This document shows, in pieces, positions 46,754-54,966 of a stretch of DNA of 64,000 nucleotides. The DNA is from Ferruginibacter sp. Its GTDB lineage: Bacteria > Bacteroidota > Bacteroidia > Chitinophagales > Chitinophagaceae. A model generated the notes under the pieces. That model had not been told where the DNA came from. It worked only from the letters and a program-made list of their open reading frames with translations, and searched no databases. The DNA lies in the NCBI GenBank assembly GCA_013141115.1, contig JABFRP010000002.1, positions 533,649 through 597,648 of the forward strand, read 5' to 3'. The translations under genes were made by a program, and so were the position numbers. The stretch's first letter is position 1. Each line of letters begins with the position of its first letter.

Positions 46754-48097
46754 TTACCTGCTCACCTGCTTTACAATATTGTAGTAAAAGCGCTGCAGCA
46801 AGCGCATATCAGCCGTAACAATTTCGCCTTGTGCAGTTAGGCCTTCTGTAAATTGGATAGATTTTTTATAGCTCGTATTTAACCCGTTGGGTAAAATAAC
46901 TTTTGCCAGGTAGCCGCTATCGGTTGTTATATGGCTGATAAAATCTATTGTGCCTTTTATACTGCCATACTCCTGAAAAGGATAAGCCGGAAATTTTAGT
47001 AATACCTGCTGCCCTGTTTTTACTTTACCAAAATTGGTTTGTGGAATGTACACTTCTGCATAGTATTGTGCATTTTCAGGGTTAACAAAGCAAATAATTT
47101 GATTATTTTGTAAGTGCTGATTTTTCTGTAAAAAAGTAGCGAATGCAATTTTGCCATCTACAGGTGCTACTAATAAATATTTACTTTTCCAATCTTCCAA
47201 TTGTGCTTTTAATGTATGGAGTGCTTGTATAAAAATTTCTTTCTGTTGTGCAATATCATTTTCTAATTGTAAAATTTCTTTTTGTTTTTCCTGTTGGCTG
47301 CTTTGGTTTGATATGATATTGCTGTTTATCTGCGGTATACTCATAGCCTTATTTAAAAATTTGCTGCGCTCATTTCTATACTCCAAGCTGGCTATTACTT
47401 TTTGCTCCTGTAATCGTTTGTTCATTTTAAAAGTAGTATCGGCCAATGCTACATCTTCCTGTTGTATACTTTTTTGCTGCAATAAATTCACATACAGCTT
47501 TTGCAGGTAACTCATATCTTTTTTCAGCATCACTTTCTTTTTTAAATAATAACCCGAAGAAAGATATTGGTTAAATAAAATAAAGCCCTGCATAAAGCTT
47601 TGGTAAGCCGGTTGTACCTCACCAAGATTTTTAAAGGGTTGCACTAAATATCGTGGAATTTTTTCTACCTGGTTGTTTTGCAGTAAATTCTGCAAAGTAT
47701 CAGTGATGGTTGAAAGCGTAAGTACTTCATCGGCGTTGGCCCTGCTTTCCATATAACCCAGTAATTCATTTTGCTGTACCGTTTGTCCTTCTTTCGCTAT
47801 TAGTTTAATTAGTTTACCTGCTGCTTTAGTAATTACTTCTTTGGGGGCGTTTATGGAAGTTAGTTTTGCTTTTGTATTTACAATATCAGGGTATTGTATA
47901 AACCAACATATAGCAGCAAGCAACAGCAGCAGTATTAAAAAATATACTGTTCCCCATCGCACAATAGAAGGAAGTTTGTTAGAAATAATTTCCTCAATTT
48001 CATTACCATGCTCCAAAAAAGTATTTCGCATTACGAAAGCGTTTTCTTTCGCATCATCAAAATCAGCAGGAAGTATTATGGGATTATCAGTTGCCAA
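46754..48097 (-). CDS. HlyD-family membrane fusion protein of a peptide exporter
   Basis: Periplasmic adaptor of up to 447 residues linking a type 1 ABC exporter to an outer-membrane channel. One membrane helix lies at about 52-72 (FLILLLLLAAICWFI). A lipoyl-like half follows (KAAGKLIKLIAKEGQTVQQNELLGYM), then a long coiled coil (about 180-300), the second lipoyl half (LLVAPVDGKIAFATFLQ) and a beta-barrel. The start is uncertain: TTG at 48097 overlaps the exporter stop by 11 bases, or ATG at 48031. It is the last gene of the peptide locus. No TolC homologue is in the window. Confidence 0.88.
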   Translation of the reverse strand: MATDNPIILPADFDDAKENAFVMRNTFLEHGNEIEEIISNKLPSIVRWGTVYFLILLLLLAAICWFIQYPDIVNTKAKLTSINAPKEVITKAAGKLIKLIAKEGQTVQQNELLGYMESRANADEVLTLSTITDTLQNLLQNNQVEKIPRYLVQPFKNLGEVQPAYQSFMQGFILFNQYLSSGYYLKKKVMLKKDMSYLQKLYVNLLQQKSIQQEDVALADTTFKMNKRLQEQKVIASLEYRNERSKFLNKAMSIPQINSNIISNQSSQQEKQKEILQLENDIAQQKEIFIQALHTLKAQLEDWKSKYLLVAPVDGKIAFATFLQKNQHLQNNQIICFVNPENAQYYAEVYIPQTNFGKVKTGQQVLLKFPAYPFQEYGSIKGTIDFISHITTDSGYLAKVILPNGLNTSYKKSIQFTEGLTAQGEIVTADMRLLQRFYYNIVKQVSR

Positions 48098-50291
48098 GTT
48101 CTAATTGATTTTTTACTAATTCATAATATTTACCTTTTTTAAAACTAAGTTCTGCATGTGTACCTTCTTCTGCAATTTTTCCATTTTCCAACACTATAAT
48201 TTTATCGGCATTTTTTACTGTACTAAGCCTATGAGCTACAACAATCACTGTTTTGTTTGTAAAGAATTGCTGTAGATTTTCAAGTATTACTTTTTCATTA
48301 TTAGCATCTAAGGAATTTGTTGCTTCATCAAAAAATATAAATTGCGGATCTTTATATACTGCCCTCGCTATAGACAATCGTTGTTTTTGCCCGCCGCTAA
48401 TACCGTTACCTTCTGCACCTAATTTTGTGTAAAAGCCCAATGGCAACGACTCTATAAATGGCAATATGTTAGCAGTTTTACAGGCGTTCATTAACCGTTC
48501 ATTATCTACTTTATCATCGGTAACAATAATGTTTTTACGGATATTGTCATTAAAAATAAAACTGTCCTGCATTACTGCGCCGCTAACACTTCGCCAATAT
48601 TTTGGACTGATGGTTTTAAAATTTGCAGTACCTAAATGTATATCCCCCTTATATCCTTCATAAAATCTTAACAGCAGTTTTACCAATGTAGTTTTACCGC
48701 TGCCACTCATACCCACAATAGCAGTTACCTTTCCCTGCGGAATGGTTAGGCTAATATCTTTAAGTACAGGCTCGTTGCCTGCACCAGGATAGGTGAAACA
48801 AAGATTTTTTATTACGATAGAATGCTCTTCTGGTAATGAGTGATTAAATTGTTTTTGTACAGGCTCTTCGTCTTCCAAAGCATGAATATCGTTTAACCGT
48901 TCTAAAGATATTTTTGCATCCTGTGCCTGTTGTGTAAAACCAACTAACTGTTCAATAGGGCTATTAAGCTGGCCAATAATATATTGAATAGCCAGCATCA
49001 TGCCCAAGGTTAGCGGCCCTTCAATAACTAATTTGGCTACAACAAATGTTATAAAAATATTTTTACCCTGATTAATAAAGAATGCCCCTATCTGCTGGTA
49101 TTGTGTAAGTGATAAACTTTTAAAATTAAGTTTGAACAAACCAGCTTGTAAACCTTCCCAAGCCCAGCGGTAAGTATTCTCTGCATTATTTAATTTTATT
49201 TCCTGCATACCATATACCAATTGCATTGTGGCATTGTTTTCCTTTGCTGCTATGGCGAATTTTTGATAATCTAATTTGCGGCGGTATTTTAAAAAGAATT
49301 GAATCCAAAACAAATACAACAAACTACCCACTGCAAAAATTATAAAAATGGTAGTATTATAACGGAGTAAAACGAAAGAAAAAATAATTAGATTGAAGAT
49401 GGAGAAAAAAGTATTTAATGCTGTGCCTGTTAAAAAACTTTCTATGCGATGATGATCGCCAATGCGTTGTATAATATCGCCAGGATGTTTACTATCAAAA
49501 AATTGCATGGGCAATTTTAGCAATTTTGCCCAAAAGCCCGAAAGCAGGGATATATTTATACGTGTGCTGATATGCAGCAAAATACGACTGCGTATAAACT
49601 CTACCACTGTTTGAGAAAATAGCAACATTAATTGTGCTGCTAAAATTATTTGTATAAAATTGAGGTTTTGGGTGTTGATGCCCGTGTCTACTATACTCTG
49701 AGTTAAATAAGGAAAAATGAGTTGCAGTACACTACCCATTAATAGCCCCAATAAAATTTGAAAAAAGTAAGCCTTATGTTGTTTTACATAATTGAACAAA
49801 TACGCTTTACCAATAGTATTAGTTTTTGTTTGTGTATCATCAGCTAAATCAATTTTTTTAAACAAGGGTGTTGGTTCCAGTAAAAGTGCAGTTCCTTTTG
49901 TTATGCCATTTTCTGTAGTAGCTATCCATTGTTTGCAAAATTCCTCTTTATTAATTTTGAGTATCCCCTTTGCCGGATCGGCAATTACCAATTGCTTTTT
50001 TGTTGATGCAGGAGTAAGCACCACAAAATGATATTGCCCCCAATGAATAATTGCTGGCAAGGGTGCATCAGTAAGCAGTTGCTCAAAACTTAGTTTTGCA
50101 CCAACAGTTTTTAATCCAATGCTTTCTGCTGCATCTGCAAGCCCAAGCATGCTTACACCTTCTTTACCATACTCCGCTTTGTTACGTAAATAATCTAATG
50201 AAATAGAACGACCATAATATTTTGACACCATGCGAAGGCAGGTGGGGCCGCAATCCATAGCATCAAGTTGTTTATATAGGGGAAATTTCAC
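48087..50291 (-). CDS. Peptidase C39-containing ABC exporter (PCAT) for leader peptides
   Basis: A 734-residue inner-membrane bifunctional transporter. The N-terminal C39 peptidase has the catalytic triad Cys14 (LDAMDCGPTCLRM), His88 (HWGQYHFVVL) and Asp105 (IADPAKG), so it should cleave leaders after a Gly-Gly-type site. Six helices (about 165-450) and an ATPase with GMSGSGKTTL, SGGQKQRLSIARA and IFFDEATNSLD follow. The start is GTG at 50289-50291, inside the last 20 bases of the glycosyltransferase-like gene. Its likely cargo is the pair of peptides at 52363-52784. Confidence 0.95.
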   Translation of the reverse strand: MKFPLYKQLDAMDCGPTCLRMVSKYYGRSISLDYLRNKAEYGKEGVSMLGLADAAESIGLKTVGAKLSFEQLLTDAPLPAIIHWGQYHFVVLTPASTKKQLVIADPAKGILKINKEEFCKQWIATTENGITKGTALLLEPTPLFKKIDLADDTQTKTNTIGKAYLFNYVKQHKAYFFQILLGLLMGSVLQLIFPYLTQSIVDTGINTQNLNFIQIILAAQLMLLFSQTVVEFIRSRILLHISTRINISLLSGFWAKLLKLPMQFFDSKHPGDIIQRIGDHHRIESFLTGTALNTFFSIFNLIIFSFVLLRYNTTIFIIFAVGSLLYLFWIQFFLKYRRKLDYQKFAIAAKENNATMQLVYGMQEIKLNNAENTYRWAWEGLQAGLFKLNFKSLSLTQYQQIGAFFINQGKNIFITFVVAKLVIEGPLTLGMMLAIQYIIGQLNSPIEQLVGFTQQAQDAKISLERLNDIHALEDEEPVQKQFNHSLPEEHSIVIKNLCFTYPGAGNEPVLKDISLTIPQGKVTAIVGMSGSGKTTLVKLLLRFYEGYKGDIHLGTANFKTISPKYWRSVSGAVMQDSFIFNDNIRKNIIVTDDKVDNERLMNACKTANILPFIESLPLGFYTKLGAEGNGISGGQKQRLSIARAVYKDPQFIFFDEATNSLDANNEKVILENLQQFFTNKTVIVVAHRLSTVKNADKIIVLENGKIAEEGTHAELSFKKGKYYELVKNQLELGN

Positions 50292-51132
50292 TTTTTTGTT
50301 TTGCCATTATTTTTTTGGGAGTAAAATAAAAAATATCGGGTATTGGGCTAAGTATTTTAGGCGGTTTACATTGCGTTTTAAATTTTATGAGATGATAAAA
50401 CATTGCTTCGTAGGTATCCTTATAAATGATTCTTCCTTTGTCCCATTTTATTTTTCCTGTGGCACCTTCAATAATAATAAAATCAAAAAATGCTTTAAGT
50501 TTTCCGTCTGCTTCAGCTTTTTTAACTACCCAAGTCATGCTTTGTATATTATCAGGATAATCAAAGATTGAAGCACCGTTTTGTAGTTCTTGAAACAAAA
50601 AATTACACTCATCAAAGCAATAATGTTCTATACTGCTAAAAACCTTTTTATAATCTTTGCTTTGCATAAACAAATTATTCATTTGCTCGCTATTTCTAAA
50701 TAAACAAAAAGTGCCGGTAATATAATCGTGCCTGCTGCTAATAACATCGTACTTATATAAAATTTCATTTGTCATAAAATTTCTGATATTACCATACACA
50801 ATATCTATATCACCATGCCCCCAAAAATCATAACCCTTTATAATCTCTGGAAATAAAAAACCATAAGCTGGTTTAAAATCACAAAGTTTGTAAGGGTAAT
50901 CTATATTTACTTTGAAGCCTAATTTTTTAGAAGCTATTCCATTTATCCCGACCATTGTCTTAAATATAATTTTAACATTTTCGGGTTTATTAATAATTAC
51001 ATTCTCATTGTCCGTAATTATTATAAAATCTATTGAATGATTATAGGAGCAAGAATGAATAAAGTATGGAAAATACCATGGGTAAGGTCCAAACCAACAA
51101 GAAAGGATTACAATTTTATTAGTGTATCGCAT
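50272..51132 (-). CDS. Putative GT-A glycosyltransferase (DUF6625-like) in the peptide locus
   Basis: A 286-residue cytosolic protein. The opening KIVILSCWFGPYPWYFPYF with SCSYNHSIDFIIITDN matches the start of DUF6625-type proteins, which look like GT-A nucleotide-sugar transferases. A DxD metal motif is present (GHGDIDIVYGN, Asp108 and Asp110). Its substrate is unknown. The position between the thioredoxin-like gene and the exporter, with a 20-base overlap into the latter, suggests it modifies the exported peptides, as SunS does for sublancin (inference). Confidence 0.65.
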   Translation of the reverse strand: MRYTNKIVILSCWFGPYPWYFPYFIHSCSYNHSIDFIIITDNENVIINKPENVKIIFKTMVGINGIASKKLGFKVNIDYPYKLCDFKPAYGFLFPEIIKGYDFWGHGDIDIVYGNIRNFMTNEILYKYDVISSRHDYITGTFCLFRNSEQMNNLFMQSKDYKKVFSSIEHYCFDECNFLFQELQNGASIFDYPDNIQSMTWVVKKAEADGKLKAFFDFIIIEGATGKIKWDKGRIIYKDTYEAMFYHLIKFKTQCKPPKILSPIPDIFYFTPKKIMAKQKSEISPI

Positions 51133-51149
51133 CAGCTAAAAAACTTATT

Positions 51150-52289
51150 TTAATATTTTCTTAAAAACCTACTTAATTCCAAAGGTTCAATATCCTTAGC
51201 GATAACCTTTCCATTGCTATCTAAAAGAAAATTGGTAGGATAACTGGAAATATTTAGCCCTAAGGCATTTTTACCGCCTTTATCCCATAAATGAATCCAA
51301 CTAGCTTGTTCCCTTTCAATTATGCTAATAGAATTTTTAATTTCTTCATCATCATCAATTGTAATACTTACTAAGTTGAACAAATTTGTATTTTTATATG
51401 AATTTGTGATGCTCCTAAAAGCAGGAAATTGCCTGATACAAGCGCCACATTTAGCGAACCAAAAATCAATTAAAATGAATTTTTTTGTATAATATGTAGA
51501 TAAAGAATCTGCCCTATTATTTTCAACTTTTATTAATTTGAATTTTGGAAAGGATTCCCCAATTGATAATGATTTTGAATCCATCATCTTTTTATACAAA
51601 TACGTATAAGGTTGGCTAAATTTTAAATTGGATGTATATTTTTTTAAACTCTTAATAAAAGAATCACTATACCCGTAAAAGTTTTCTACCATCAGAAAAA
51701 TAGGGATTAGTGAATTTGTATTTTTGCTGGCATAGCTACTTATTTCATTATGATAATTATTCTGTATCAAGCGATCTTGAATTCTCATTTCACTTAAGGC
51801 ACTGTCCAATTTTTCTCCTTCATAGGCATCATACTTTTCGTTCATTTGAGCTGCCCACAAGTCATTCAAAATTTTATACTTACTAAAAACATTTACAAAT
51901 GTCTTTTGAAATTTAAGGTGGGTTGCTGAACCATTTATTGCAACTACATTATTTCGTAGGGTATCAATTAAAAATTTAGTACTCAATTTTCCCCCTTCTA
52001 TAAAAACCATTGCAGAAGTCATACCTTCATTTTCAAACCTATAAGTAAATTTCACCCCAAGTGGGCCTTTTAATTTACCTTTAAATTTAAACCTCTCATT
52101 GTAAATTGTATCTGAATAAGAATCCAAATTATAATATTTATTTTTTTCAATCAATGGTTCTAAATACATGATACTACCATCCTTAGCACCTTTAGCATAT
52201 CCACTTAACTCAAAAGATTGCATCGCATTTTGCCCCATAACATTTACGGATATAAAAAATGAGAATATCGATAATTTTATAATTTGCAT
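51150..52289 (-). CDS. TlpA-like thioredoxin-fold protein with DUF4369-like N-domain
   Basis: A 379-residue exported protein with signal peptide MQIIKLSIFSFFISVNVMGQ. The N-terminal beta domain (about 24-120, FELSGYAKGAKDGSIMYLEP) is of DUF4369 type, then a helical middle. The C-terminal thioredoxin fold has the active site CGAC (Cys281, Cys284 in FWFAKCGACIRQFPAF) and a cis-Pro in SSYPTNFLLD. Such proteins reduce or reshuffle periplasmic disulfides. Placed directly behind two six-cysteine peptides, it may proofread or isomerise their bonds. Confidence 0.88.
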   Translation of the reverse strand: MQIIKLSIFSFFISVNVMGQNAMQSFELSGYAKGAKDGSIMYLEPLIEKNKYYNLDSYSDTIYNERFKFKGKLKGPLGVKFTYRFENEGMTSAMVFIEGGKLSTKFLIDTLRNNVVAINGSATHLKFQKTFVNVFSKYKILNDLWAAQMNEKYDAYEGEKLDSALSEMRIQDRLIQNNYHNEISSYASKNTNSLIPIFLMVENFYGYSDSFIKSLKKYTSNLKFSQPYTYLYKKMMDSKSLSIGESFPKFKLIKVENNRADSLSTYYTKKFILIDFWFAKCGACIRQFPAFRSITNSYKNTNLFNLVSITIDDDEEIKNSISIIEREQASWIHLWDKGGKNALGLNISSYPTNFLLDSNGKVIAKDIEPLELSRFLRKY

Positions 52290-52362
52290 CTACTTATTAT
52301 TAAATTGGTTTGCTAAAAATTAAGTAGGTCAAGGAAATTTATTTGACCTACTTAATTAAGTG

Positions 52363-52554
52363 TTATTTGCAGTAAGATGTACCTGTCAGTTTTACATCAC
52401 AACTTGCACAACAGCCATCGTAAGTGGCCCCTGGCGCAGGACACTTTATACCTTTAGCAGCGCATCCCGAACTGCTACCTGCCATGATATTCTTCATTTC
52501 AGTCCTACTTAACTTACCATTTATACTAGCAAGACTCATTTTTTTTGTTTCCAT
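52363..52554 (-). CDS. Secreted six-cysteine peptide precursor 1
   Basis: 63 residues. Leader 1-26 ends KLSRTEMKNIMAG; hydrophobic Ile at -4, Met at -7 and Leu at -12, with Glu at -8, match C39 leader recognition, although the cleavage site is Ala-Gly, not Gly-Gly. The 37-residue core has Cys at 31, 38, 48, 49, 52 and 62 (C-x6-C-x9-CC-x2-C-x9-C), the C-C-CC-C-C framework of knottins. The leader is close to that of precursor 2, while the cores differ except for the cysteines, DGCC and a few glycines. No lanthipeptide enzyme is nearby. Activity unknown; antibacterial or signalling roles are possible. Confidence 0.85.
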   Translation of the reverse strand: METKKMSLASINGKLSRTEMKNIMAGSSSGCAAKGIKCPAPGATYDGCCASCDVKLTGTSYCK

Positions 52555-52586
52555 TTTAATGGTTTTAGTAATTAATAATTTTTAAT

Positions 52587-52784
52587 CTATTTAGGACCAC
52601 ATGAATAAAACCCTAAGGAACTCTTTACACACTTTCCACAGCAACCATCAGGTGTTCCGTATTTGTCAGGGCAACTTTGCCCATTGGGTGCGCAGGCACT
52701 TCCACTTCCTGCCATAATATTCTTCATTTCAGTCCTACTCATTTTACCTTGCATATTCGCAAGGCTCATTTTTTTTGTTTCCAT
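52587..52784 (-). CDS. Secreted six-cysteine peptide precursor 2
   Basis: 65 residues. Leader 1-26 (ending KMSRTEMKNIMAG) shares about 22 positions with precursor 1. The 39-residue core has cysteines at the same six positions, 31, 38, 48, 49, 52 and 62, with different residues between (for example CAPNGQSC and CCGKC). The same leader with a divergent core is the usual mark of a duplicated exported-peptide family. It lies 144 bases after the VKOR fusion gene and 32 bases before precursor 1, so all are probably co-transcribed. Confidence 0.85.
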   Translation of the reverse strand: METKKMSLANMQGKMSRTEMKNIMAGSGSACAPNGQSCPDKYGTPDGCCGKCVKSSLGFYSCGPK

Positions 52785-52928
52785 TTTTTTTAATTTAAAT
52801 GTTGTAAATCAAAATGCTGTATTTCTTATTACACCTTTGCTTTTAGCATCAAAGGCTTTGGCTTAGTTTGGCAACCCATTGTTTGCAACCAACAGGCGTA
52901 AGCGTCCAAACTATTTTCTACCTGTTGC

Positions 52929-54527
52929 TTATTCAAGTAAAAAATATTGTAAATCCTCAATGCTGTATGCATTGGGCAGTTGGTATCCGTTTATAAAAAT
53001 TGTTGGTGTAAAAGCTATTCCAGTTTCGCTGCACCATTTTGCCATACGTTCTATTTTGTCTCCTTGTTTGTTCAGCTCTCCATTCATAGCATATTTTTTC
53101 GCAAACACTTCATAATCTTTTTCAGGTGGCAAATACCAATCATCTAAAGCTTGTTTTGTTTTTTCTTGGTTGCCCTGGCCTTTTATTGCAAGTAAGTGCC
53201 TTACCGGATAAATTGCACTATCGGCTTCGCTGTTGGTAGTATTAAAAATTATTTTTGCTTTTACATTGTCATTTTGTTCTAGCAATGCTTCAATTTTTGG
53301 GTGCGCTGTAGCGCAAGGGCCGCAATAAGGGTTACATACTTTTATAATCGTATTTTTGGCGGCTGGGTTACCCATATCAATTCCTAACCCGTCTGTAGAA
53401 GTTATTATTTTCTTTTGTTTATGCAAAAGTGTTTCAAATATCTGGGTGTTAAATTTTATACGCAGGTATTCTCTTTTAGTATTTTTTGCTTGTTGTAAGC
53501 GCAAAATATAAGGCTTTACCGCATACCATAATAATACAGGTAGCACCATTAGCATTAAGCAATTGGTAATAAGTAAAAATGGCAATTGTGGTAGCAGAAA
53601 TAAAAAATTACCAACGATAACATTAATGCCGCCCAGCAATAATAAGGCTTGCACCGTAAGGCAGAGTACACACCATTGCTTTGCCACACGCCATTGATAA
53701 TAAATGCTAAATAATGTGTATGGTAATGCCAATATATTAAGCCATGCCAATAAAGCAATAGCATTGGGTAAAAATAATAGCGTAAGCAGGCTACCTGCAA
53801 AATAAAAAAAGCCTACCTCACTCCAGCTTAACCAGTTAAATACTTTGGCCTGCTTACCGCTAAGTATGGCGTTGCAATTACCTTTGGCAATGCCTGTACA
53901 TACTTTATGTAAAAGAGGATTATTTTTATCAATCTCGTACCAGAGCAACAGGGCTGTTACAAACACCCCCGCCAGCAAAATAGCGTATTGCAGGTAAATA
54001 CCGGTTGAAGGTGAGTTAAAAGCCCTGGTATTTTTATCTAAAATTAAAAAAGAAAGTATAATTAATAGCACTACTGATGCAGCGGGTATAAGCGAATTTA
54101 AAAATGCTTTTTGCTTATTTGCAATATAGTTTAATTCGCCAGAGTGTTGATCTGGTTCCGCTATAAGGTAAATGCCATCCCACTGCTTTAAGAAGTCTTC
54201 CTTGCTTAGTTTAAGCGTAGTATTATATTTCTTTTGGCAAACTTGTACAGTATCATCATTTATTTGTGTAACAATGGCCAATGGATTTTCTCTGTTATTT
54301 GTATAAGCCATAAAAGGCAAAGGCAACTCATCTATTTTACCAGCATCTATTTTACCTGCGCCGTTGGGGATATTCCATTTGTTTAGGCTATCGGCAATAC
54401 AAAGCAGGCTTGGCCAGTCGGGGTGGTTTTGTAAGGTTTCGTTTACAGTAGCATCGTTTACCTTGACTTTTAATTGTTTAAGATATGAAATGGTAGCATT
54501 AACATTAGGCTCGTATTGGCTAAACAT
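52929..54527 (-). CDS. C39-like / VKOR / thioredoxin fusion, disulfide-forming membrane protein
   Basis: 532 residues in three parts. Residues 1-125 resemble a C39 peptidase domain but lack its catalytic Cys (PDWPSLLCIADSLNKW), so it may bind leaders without cutting. Residues 145-345 are a VKOR membrane domain with the loop pair C210-x7-C218 and active site Cys286-VL-Cys289. Residues 365-532 are a DsbA/thioredoxin fold with Cys402-GP-Cys405 and cis-Pro in FTPTIFING. VKOR-thioredoxin pairs make disulfides by passing electrons to quinone. As the first gene of the locus it is the likely oxidase for the six-cysteine peptides. Confidence 0.9.
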   Translation of the reverse strand: MFSQYEPNVNATISYLKQLKVKVNDATVNETLQNHPDWPSLLCIADSLNKWNIPNGAGKIDAGKIDELPLPFMAYTNNRENPLAIVTQINDDTVQVCQKKYNTTLKLSKEDFLKQWDGIYLIAEPDQHSGELNYIANKQKAFLNSLIPAASVVLLIILSFLILDKNTRAFNSPSTGIYLQYAILLAGVFVTALLLWYEIDKNNPLLHKVCTGIAKGNCNAILSGKQAKVFNWLSWSEVGFFYFAGSLLTLLFLPNAIALLAWLNILALPYTLFSIYYQWRVAKQWCVLCLTVQALLLLGGINVIVGNFLFLLPQLPFLLITNCLMLMVLPVLLWYAVKPYILRLQQAKNTKREYLRIKFNTQIFETLLHKQKKIITSTDGLGIDMGNPAAKNTIIKVCNPYCGPCATAHPKIEALLEQNDNVKAKIIFNTTNSEADSAIYPVRHLLAIKGQGNQEKTKQALDDWYLPPEKDYEVFAKKYAMNGELNKQGDKIERMAKWCSETGIAFTPTIFINGYQLPNAYSIEDLQYFLLE

Positions 54528-54719
54528 AATTGATACTGCAATTACTTTTAAATGTATTTGGAATATGAAAGTTGAATATAAAAAAATTATAAACCTAAAT
54601 ATTGAGGGTTGTAAATTACAACCAGATGAAATGTTTAACTGTTTATTATAAAGGAACTATTATTCATGTTATTTTTTATATTGTATAAAGTAGTTATCTT
54701 GGTTACTAAATAATCTGTG
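54528..54719. other. Gap between the peptide locus and the divergent XRE remnant
   Basis: 192 AT-rich bases between the VKOR-fusion start and the XRE-like frame. It must hold the promoter of the peptide locus on the minus strand, but I found no exact TAnnTTTG box and no clear operator. Confidence 0.35.
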
Positions 54720-54966
54720 ATGCACCACTTGAATAACTATTTACCATCAGGAGAATTGTTTAGATTATTACGCAATTTAAAAGGTATTAAACAAGAGCAA
54801 GCCGCTAAAAAATTAGCTATCAGCCAGCAGGCTATTTCTAAATTGGAGAAATGTAAAAATATAAGTACTGAAAAAATTTACTGCTATTATTACTGCATTT
54901 AATTTTACGCAGGAAGATATTGATATTGCTAAAGGTTTTTACCCCCAGAAAAGTAATATCAATTAG
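54720..54966 (+). pseudogene. XRE-type HTH regulator, broken by a +1 frameshift
   Basis: From the ATG at 54720 the frame encodes an XRE helix-turn-helix (LFRLLRNLKGIKQEQAAKKL, then ISQQAISKLEKC). It hits a stop at 54900. If one A of the A6 run at 54871-54876 is skipped, the frame continues as FTAIITAFNFTQEDIDIAKG to a TAG at 54964-54966, a natural HTH_3 ending. Total length is 247 bases, not a multiple of three. It may be a pseudogene, a sequencing error or a recoded gene. It is divergent from the peptide locus and may have regulated it. Confidence 0.7.

Follow-up and report, generated by a model that had tools for sequence, protein, structure and literature searches.

Glycocins, among them sublancin, glycocin F and thermoglycocin/orniglycocin, are encoded by clusters in which a leader-bearing precursor stands with a glycosyltransferase, proteins resembling thioredoxin and a C39 exporter that is bifunctional; the products are rich in disulfides, of which thermoglycocin has three (PMC12457901, in the part available). 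In Bacteroidota, the bacteroidetocins (class IIf) are small disulfide peptides whose loci include a C39-ABC exporter and a dedicated thiol oxidoreductase; according to the available part of the study describing them, toxin activity is weakened when either the thiol oxidoreductase or the membrane protein is deleted, and a search for immunity genes brought up no obvious one (PMC6671954). Both gene sets resemble a seven-gene locus in the window analyzed here, a 64,000-nucleotide stretch of a Ferruginibacter sp. genome (GenBank GCA_013141115.1, contig JABFRP010000002.1). The locus encodes two six-cysteine peptide precursors, a VKOR-thioredoxin fusion, a TlpA-like thioredoxin, a DUF6625 protein, a C39 exporter and an HlyD-type adaptor. 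We hold with moderate confidence that its products are two secreted peptides, rich in disulfides and probably O-glycosylated, whose most likely role is competition with other bacteria.

DUF6625 and the residue after the leader

The central observation, new here and lacking in the preliminary description of this DNA, is a link between DUF6625 and a serine directly after the leader (Ser+1). Among precursors whose leader ends in Ala-Gly (AG-type) and that have DUF6625 within 8 kb on the same strand, serine follows the Ala-Gly in 54/54, against 12/40 of those lacking DUF6625 (Fisher test, 8.5e-15). The same holds for one precursor per locus (39/39 with DUF6625 and 6/18 without) and for distinct cores (50/50 and 12/38). 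In the DUF6625-free control, four false open reading frames (ORFs) and one that belonged to a DUF6625 locus were removed, which reduced it from 40 to 35 and gave 9/35. Two loci of identical sequence, L126 and L192, are both included in the 54/54 and in the exporter-matched set described below; the leader proteins of L114 and L123 have serine after Ala-Gly, fail the leader rule and are uncounted; and L218-L269 enter no precursor count. When the nearest leader ORF, whatever its size, was taken at loci with short-form DUF6625, 44 of 45 had serine and one had cysteine. Gly-Gly-type precursors near DUF6625, from the genome scan, had serine at +1 in 6/17.

Across the 50 distinct cores, +1 is the sole invariant position; glycine occupies +2 in 34/50, and from +3 to +8 no residue exceeds 17/50. 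The serine is retained in a cysteine-free core (L129), in hydrophobic Gly-rich cores whose exporter is only 27-28% identical to that of the window (L094-L096), and in Flavobacterium leader proteins of 164-464 residues, with cysteine in L107 as the exception. On a tree of the VKOR proteins, read informally, DUF6625 is patchy and the serine tracks it at several places. Beside DUF6625 in L114 (9917-11311) is a 464-residue leader protein in which serine follows Ala-Gly and a phage-lysozyme domain forms the C-terminal part; the next gene is small and lipoprotein-like. Judged by its sequence, this leader protein looks like an exported cell-wall hydrolase.

The preliminary description had called the window protein a putative glycosyltransferase, a label that gains from both its predicted fold and its co-occurrence with peptide machinery. 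It matches Pfam family DUF6625 (PF20330) at 1.1e-62 and 212.7 bits, against a gathering cut-off of 27; this is the only Pfam cut-off it passes, and the glycosyltransferase (GT) family 2 model Glycos_transf_2 gave no match at E ≤ 1. Its predicted structure, with a predicted local distance difference test (pLDDT) score of 95, has a GT-A fold nearest to GT6 enzymes and an invariant DxD. The fold matches listed were GT6 enzymes and LARGE1, and the absence of SunS-type enzymes among those listed excludes nothing. In a search of PDB sequences, the best match of the protein had E 0.8, and the DUF6625 profile had none at E ≤ 1. From the model we predict that DUF6625 is a GT-A glycosyltransferase with a DxD motif; that it glycosylates peptides is likely, and Ser+1 is a plausible site.

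To place the family, 84,980 species genomes were scanned using three aligned DUF6625 sequences as query. From 235 candidates the best 80, which are the family members closest to the window protein, gave 79 loci, or 80 with the window; L106 and L165 share a contig, and L124, on the same contig as L081, was excluded from the precursor statistics and the nearest-leader-ORF counts. A C39 exporter was present in 57 of the 80 loci, HlyD in 42, VKOR in 39, TlpA in 14 and a leader ORF in 52 (a tally that counts one false leader ORF, L115, dropped from the nearest-leader-ORF count), and at least one of VKOR, exporter and leader ORF in 68/80. Titles and tree labels place the loci in Chitinophagaceae, Flavobacteriaceae, Weeksellaceae, Sphingobacteriaceae and others, with one in Balneolota. 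By homology to L081, GT61 enzymes occur in five loci and GT4-like enzymes in six; more than one DUF6625 occurs in 14, as if GT61, GT4 or extra DUF6625 copies built longer sugar chains. By BLAST, LanB-C-like proteins were found in three of the 80 loci and a LanC-like protein in one. A separate observation concerns L082 (9498-19873), where DUF6625 and a GT2 enzyme lie inside a lanthipeptide cluster with Lant_dehydr_C (Pfam), a C39 exporter, HlyD and, by eye, LanB- and LanC-like proteins, which suggests that this locus makes glycosylated lanthipeptides.

Disulfide-rich precursors and their oxidation machinery

The 26-residue leader common to precursors A and B has Ala-Gly (IMAG) at its end, followed by serine, and not Gly-Gly. 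Core A begins SGSAC and core B begins SSSGC. Each has exactly six cysteines, as had been claimed, in the arrangement C-x6-C-x9-CC-x2-C-x9-C, which is the spacing of the inhibitor cystine knot (ICK) with vicinal cysteines III and IV. Neither precursor matched a Pfam family, or TIGR04149 in NCBIfam, at E ≤ 1. A profile of the window precursors and five related ones matched solved knottins weakly (best E 0.011). Most of the 18 fold matches of a low-confidence model of precursor A (pLDDT 61.8) were knottins (best E 0.45), and spinach trypsin inhibitor was among the nearest, which for such a model is suggestive only. Since other genera also have this leader and relatives of both cores, the precursors are not chance ORFs: a close relative of core A lies in L058/L267 (9124-9309), close relatives of core B lie in L058 (9300-9512) and L232/L262, and relatives of the two cores are thus co-located in L058/L267.

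The fusion gene contains the VKOR and thioredoxin domains of the preliminary description (Pfam VKOR, 3.9e-12; Thioredoxin_4, 3.6e-12) and an additional N-terminal domain that it had overlooked. Over its first 130 residues the fusion shows homology to the C39 peptidase domain of the exporter (hhalign, 97.2%), in an alignment that begins past the catalytic cysteine motif and in which the histidine and aspartate are not conserved. In the exporter itself (Peptidase_C39, 1.6e-34; ABC_tran, 1.2e-27), the catalytic residues Cys14, His88 and Asp105 are invariant in 10/10 aligned exporters. We infer that the degenerate C39-like domain binds the leader. Cysteines 210/218 and 286/289 of the VKOR domain and 398/402/405 of the thioredoxin domain are invariant among the fusions, and the hydropathy profile has five stretches over threshold, one of them fitting two segments, for about six transmembrane (TM) segments.

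The preliminary description had suggested testing whether the gene set co-occurs across Bacteroidota, and the system is widespread there. The VKOR fusion was found in 45/294 genomes of a family draw and 41/395 of a phylum draw, mostly adjoined by a C39 exporter and leader-bearing cysteine-rich peptides. In each draw, 40 stretches rather than every match were inspected; genes in them were called by BLAST with the window proteins, and several stretches stop at contig ends. The family stretches held a C39 exporter in 25, HlyD in 23, TlpA in 12 and a leader ORF with at least four cysteines in 33, and the phylum stretches in 33, 31, 7 and 30, respectively. The scanned loci gave 237 distinct leader ORFs, 197 of them with at least three cysteines, and the cysteine number is even in 184 of these 197 cores (binomial, 4e-40). 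From these sequences we strongly infer disulfides in the peptides. S-glycosylation of a spare cysteine is ruled out as a general mode by the same count.

Knottin spacing was found in only 8/125 six-cysteine cores, which rules out a single knottin family; the term, which the preliminary description had extended to a family of Bacteroidota, therefore fits this locus and not the family. Going by the sequences, the family is defined by leader type and machinery, and its cores are hypervariable. A TlpA gene lies directly 3' of 43/194 precursors with at least four cysteines. L038, L039, L058/L267, L063 and L052 contain arrays in which precursors are followed by diverged TlpA-like genes of their own, as though there were one foldase per peptide. 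A product of the lanthipeptide or radical-SAM type is ruled out for the window locus since, as first described, none of the seven proteins matches a LanB/LanC-type (or LanM/KC/L) or radical-SAM family.

Proposed pathway and alternatives

In the pathway that we propose, a ribosomally made precursor would be recognized through its 26-residue leader, and the cytoplasmic DUF6625 enzyme, guided by that leader, would add one sugar to the serine after Ala-Gly. In some relatives the sugar may be extended by GT61 and GT4 enzymes or by further DUF6625 copies. The C39 exporter would then cleave after Ala-Gly and export the peptide together with HlyD and a chromosomally encoded outer-membrane channel, leaving the sugared serine N-terminal. 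Finally, the VKOR-thioredoxin fusion would oxidize the peptide and TlpA would reshuffle its three disulfides. More tentatively, DUF6625 may represent a new class of leader-guided glycosyltransferases of Bacteroidota that modify the residue after the cleavage site, N-terminal serine or rarely cysteine, on any core; such a class would cover a knottin, other disulfide peptides, a hydrophobic peptide and a whole lysozyme-like enzyme.

The best-placed alternative, which we regard as unlikely though far from negligible, is that the products are bacteriocin-like peptides with disulfides only, that DUF6625 acts on a surface glycan (for example in self-protection of the producer) and that Ser+1 is a junction motif of the lineage. 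It draws on several of the observations that weigh against glycosylation of the peptides. DUF6625 is rare in the family draw (8/294 genomes) and lies within a peptide locus in only three of these eight: the window, L082 and L081, which has the same TlpA-DUF6625-exporter order as the window plus GT61 and GT4. In L080, L085 and L086 it lies in polysaccharide-type clusters, as judged by the neighbors, and the acceptor therefore need not be a peptide; L083 and L084 are loci of neither type. It is absent from 37/40 phylum-draw and 40/40 family-draw VKOR stretches, so the system runs without it. Ser+1 also occurs with no DUF6625 nearby, in L188 (2/2 precursors), L194 (2/3), L055 (1/2), L232/L262, L237/L263, L241/L264 and L058/L267, where the exporter is 72% identical to that of the window and 4/6 AG-type precursors have the serine; BLAST queries and inspection by eye, made without a Pfam scan, recognized no glycosyltransferase in L267 or L263. 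Ser+1 could serve as a junction or recognition signal, or could simply be passed on along with a cassette to which it is linked.

Other points count on the same side. Peptide machinery is absent from 12/80 DUF6625 loci, and the leader rule gave no leader ORF in 29/84 loci. At the ten loci with long-form DUF6625 (>330 residues), +1 is serine in four, tyrosine in three, phenylalanine in two and leucine in one, the leucine (L146) being a mis-call. The 79 loci are those nearest the window protein, with more distant ones outside the sample. The topology of the fusion also fits poorly. VKOR cysteines are periplasmic in cyanobacterial VKOR, which would put the C39-like and thioredoxin domains of the fusion in the periplasm as well; a C39-like domain that seems to be periplasmic sits uneasily with a leader cut in the cytoplasm or during export.

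What argues for a peptide acceptor over a surface glycan is that DUF6625 stands beside leader proteins of unrelated cores, sizes and exporters, and the serine is nevertheless retained. With exporters at least 60% identical to that of the window, serine is found at +1 in 19/19 precursors with DUF6625 (12 loci) versus 0/15 without (4 loci, of a single genus), although L058/L267 falls outside this count because its first stretch lacked the exporter.

Less probable, in our judgment, is that the products act on eukaryotes or serve as signals. The knottin-like cores resemble inhibitors of proteases or channels, and the low-confidence core model is nearest to eukaryotic knottins. Cystine knots arise repeatedly, however, and the wider family has many cysteine frameworks. 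The DUF6625-linked leader protein with the phage-lysozyme domain points to attack on bacteria, as do bacteroidetocins, which have a similar gene set and inhibit bacteria (PMC6671954, in the part available). Most doubtful is a sugar on another core residue (serine, threonine or tyrosine in the loops), with Ser+1 only part of a recognition site: serine and threonine are common in the cores and glycocin enzymes modify positions inside the core and near its end (available part of PMC12457901), but +1 alone is invariant, and L129 and L094-L096 have no other evident core feature in common with the window.

A second uncharacterized family, DUF6734, occurs in related peptide loci (L057, L061, L107, L150 and L158), with pieces in L055, L262 and L264, where Ser+1 is found in the absence of DUF6625. 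The five longer members have a conserved D-x-D, and DUF6734 may therefore substitute for DUF6625. Close kinship of the two families is ruled out (hhalign probability 0.3%).

If DUF6625 does glycosylate the peptides, an uncharacterized Pfam family would gain a function, and ribosomal glycopeptides would also occur in a phylum with none known from our open-access searches. The enzyme would act at one set N-terminal position regardless of the core, which would be useful in peptide tagging. The loci also suggest that hypervariable peptides rich in disulfides exist in large numbers, served by a dedicated oxidase and, at some loci, by a separate TlpA for each peptide.

Locus layout and relation to known systems

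The ORF check of the window found all seven ORFs on the minus strand in the order first described, with Pfam support for the large proteins (Table 1). The TlpA-like protein matches Redoxin/AhpC-TSA and DUF4369, and the best match of the HlyD adaptor, NCBIfam TIGR01843 at 3.5e-23, is under the curated cut-off.

Table 1. Features of the peptide locus in the window (exporter and HlyD coordinates run from the first possible starts, GTG and TTG, respectively).
Feature	Position	Strand	Remark
C39-like (without catalytic residues), VKOR and DsbA-like thioredoxin fusion, putative peptide oxidase	52929..54527	-	
Precursor A, 65 residues: 26-residue leader, 39-residue core, 6 Cys	52587..52784	-	
Precursor B, 63 residues: 26-residue leader, 37-residue core, 6 Cys	52363..52554	-	
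15-bp hairpin in the precursor B/TlpA interval, possible attenuator	52318..52357	-	folding z -5.82
DUF4369-TlpA-like thioredoxin (CGAC), putative disulfide isomerase/reductase, apparent signal peptide (by eye)	51150..52289	-	
DUF6625 protein, predicted GT-A glycosyltransferase, DxD at residues 108-110	50272..51132	-	
C39 peptidase-ABC exporter, predicted leader cleavage and export	48087..50291	-	
HlyD-type periplasmic adaptor	46754..48097	-	TIGR01843 match

The genes are packed closely enough that they may form one transcription unit, as had been supposed: counted from first possible starts, the exporter gene overlaps that of HlyD by 11 bases and that of DUF6625 by 20, with gaps of 17 bases between TlpA and DUF6625 and 32 between the precursors. 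The hairpin, however, interrupts the set between precursor B and TlpA. None of 200 shuffles reached equal stability. The minus strand has only three T's 3' of the stem, and the terminator scan reports the hairpin on the plus strand only; promoter and terminator scans of the window were at chance level. Judged from the sequence, attenuation here, raising the peptide transcript over the rest of the set, is possible. The claim that every pathway step is present goes too far, in that no outer-membrane channel and no recognizable immunity gene were found among the seven genes.

By comparison with 12 other genomes of the genus, in 9 of which mraZ lies at most 1.5 kb from the flanking histidine-kinase gene, the locus reads as an insertion between these two genes; G681 and G677, also of this genus, yielded no full orthologue of the kinase. 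In G682, of the same genus, the junction is occupied by other genes, including an apparent RND efflux set (by eye; L230, 3667-14262), so insertions may be frequent at this site. G+C is 0.338 in the locus and 0.367 in the remaining window. Divergent from the VKOR gene is a 61-residue ORF (54717-54902) with the look, by eye, of an XRE-type helix-turn-helix protein, possibly a regulator or a remnant. In L267 (3411-4085) a LuxR-type gene adjoins the VKOR fusion and is a possible cluster regulator; the assignment to Pfam GerE comes from a scan of L267 only, and a copy in L055 (10954-11628) was judged by sequence similarity. Elsewhere in the source genome (L269, 3767-17605; C1, about 1.49 Mb) is a separate class I lanthipeptide-type cluster with several small leader ORFs, a LanB-like protein of 1057 residues, a LanC-like protein (by eye) and a C39 exporter 51% identical to that of the window.

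In the open-access literature searched, 'DUF6625' was not found, and no title or abstract opening among the matches listed describes this gene set; nor did the listed matches for glycocin and Bacteroidetes include a Bacteroidota glycocin title. The available part of PMC12457901 has no word beginning 'Bacteroid', and that of a paper on mining Bacteroidales for ribosomally synthesized and post-translationally modified peptides (PMC10352776) lacks the words disulfide, thioredoxin, VKOR, vitamin K and cysteine-rich.

In leader style the precursors resemble the NCBIfam models TIGR04149 and leader_Chryseo; L113 passes the TIGR04149 cut-off, whereas the window precursors are under both cut-offs and the seven proteins include no radical-SAM family. 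The cores have the six-cysteine C-C-CC-C-C spacing of knottins and match spider and plant members weakly, both by profile and by fold. Unlike these they come from a bacterium, their leader is of the double-glycine type and they are served by a C39 exporter; most members of their family have other frameworks.

Bacteroidetocins A and B have about 42 residues, four cysteines and a 15-residue leader, other listed members having at least two cysteines, and no glycosyltransferase is described for them (PMC6671954, in the part available). Compared by description and not by sequence, the window peptides differ in having six cysteines, cores of 37-39 residues and a 26-residue leader. Bacteroidetocin loci also have a separate 5-TM protein, which is not among the seven proteins here, where the C39-like/VKOR/thioredoxin fusion has about six TM segments.

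The locus shares with glycocins a C39-ABC exporter with a double-glycine-type leader end, although AG replaces GG, and thiol-disulfide oxidoreductases in the cluster (the VKOR-thioredoxin fusion and TlpA). The glycosyltransferases SunS and GccA are of the GT2 type, whereas the window enzyme belongs to DUF6625, with a GT6-like predicted fold and no Pfam GT2 match. The even cysteine number leaves no evident spare cysteine for S-glycosylation, and the proposed site is the N-terminal serine. The VKOR fusion and HlyD are a further difference, suited to a Gram-negative envelope. Overall, the system resembles a glycocin-like pathway to glycosylated, disulfide-bonded, bacteriocin-like peptides, but with a glycosyltransferase of another family and in another phylum.

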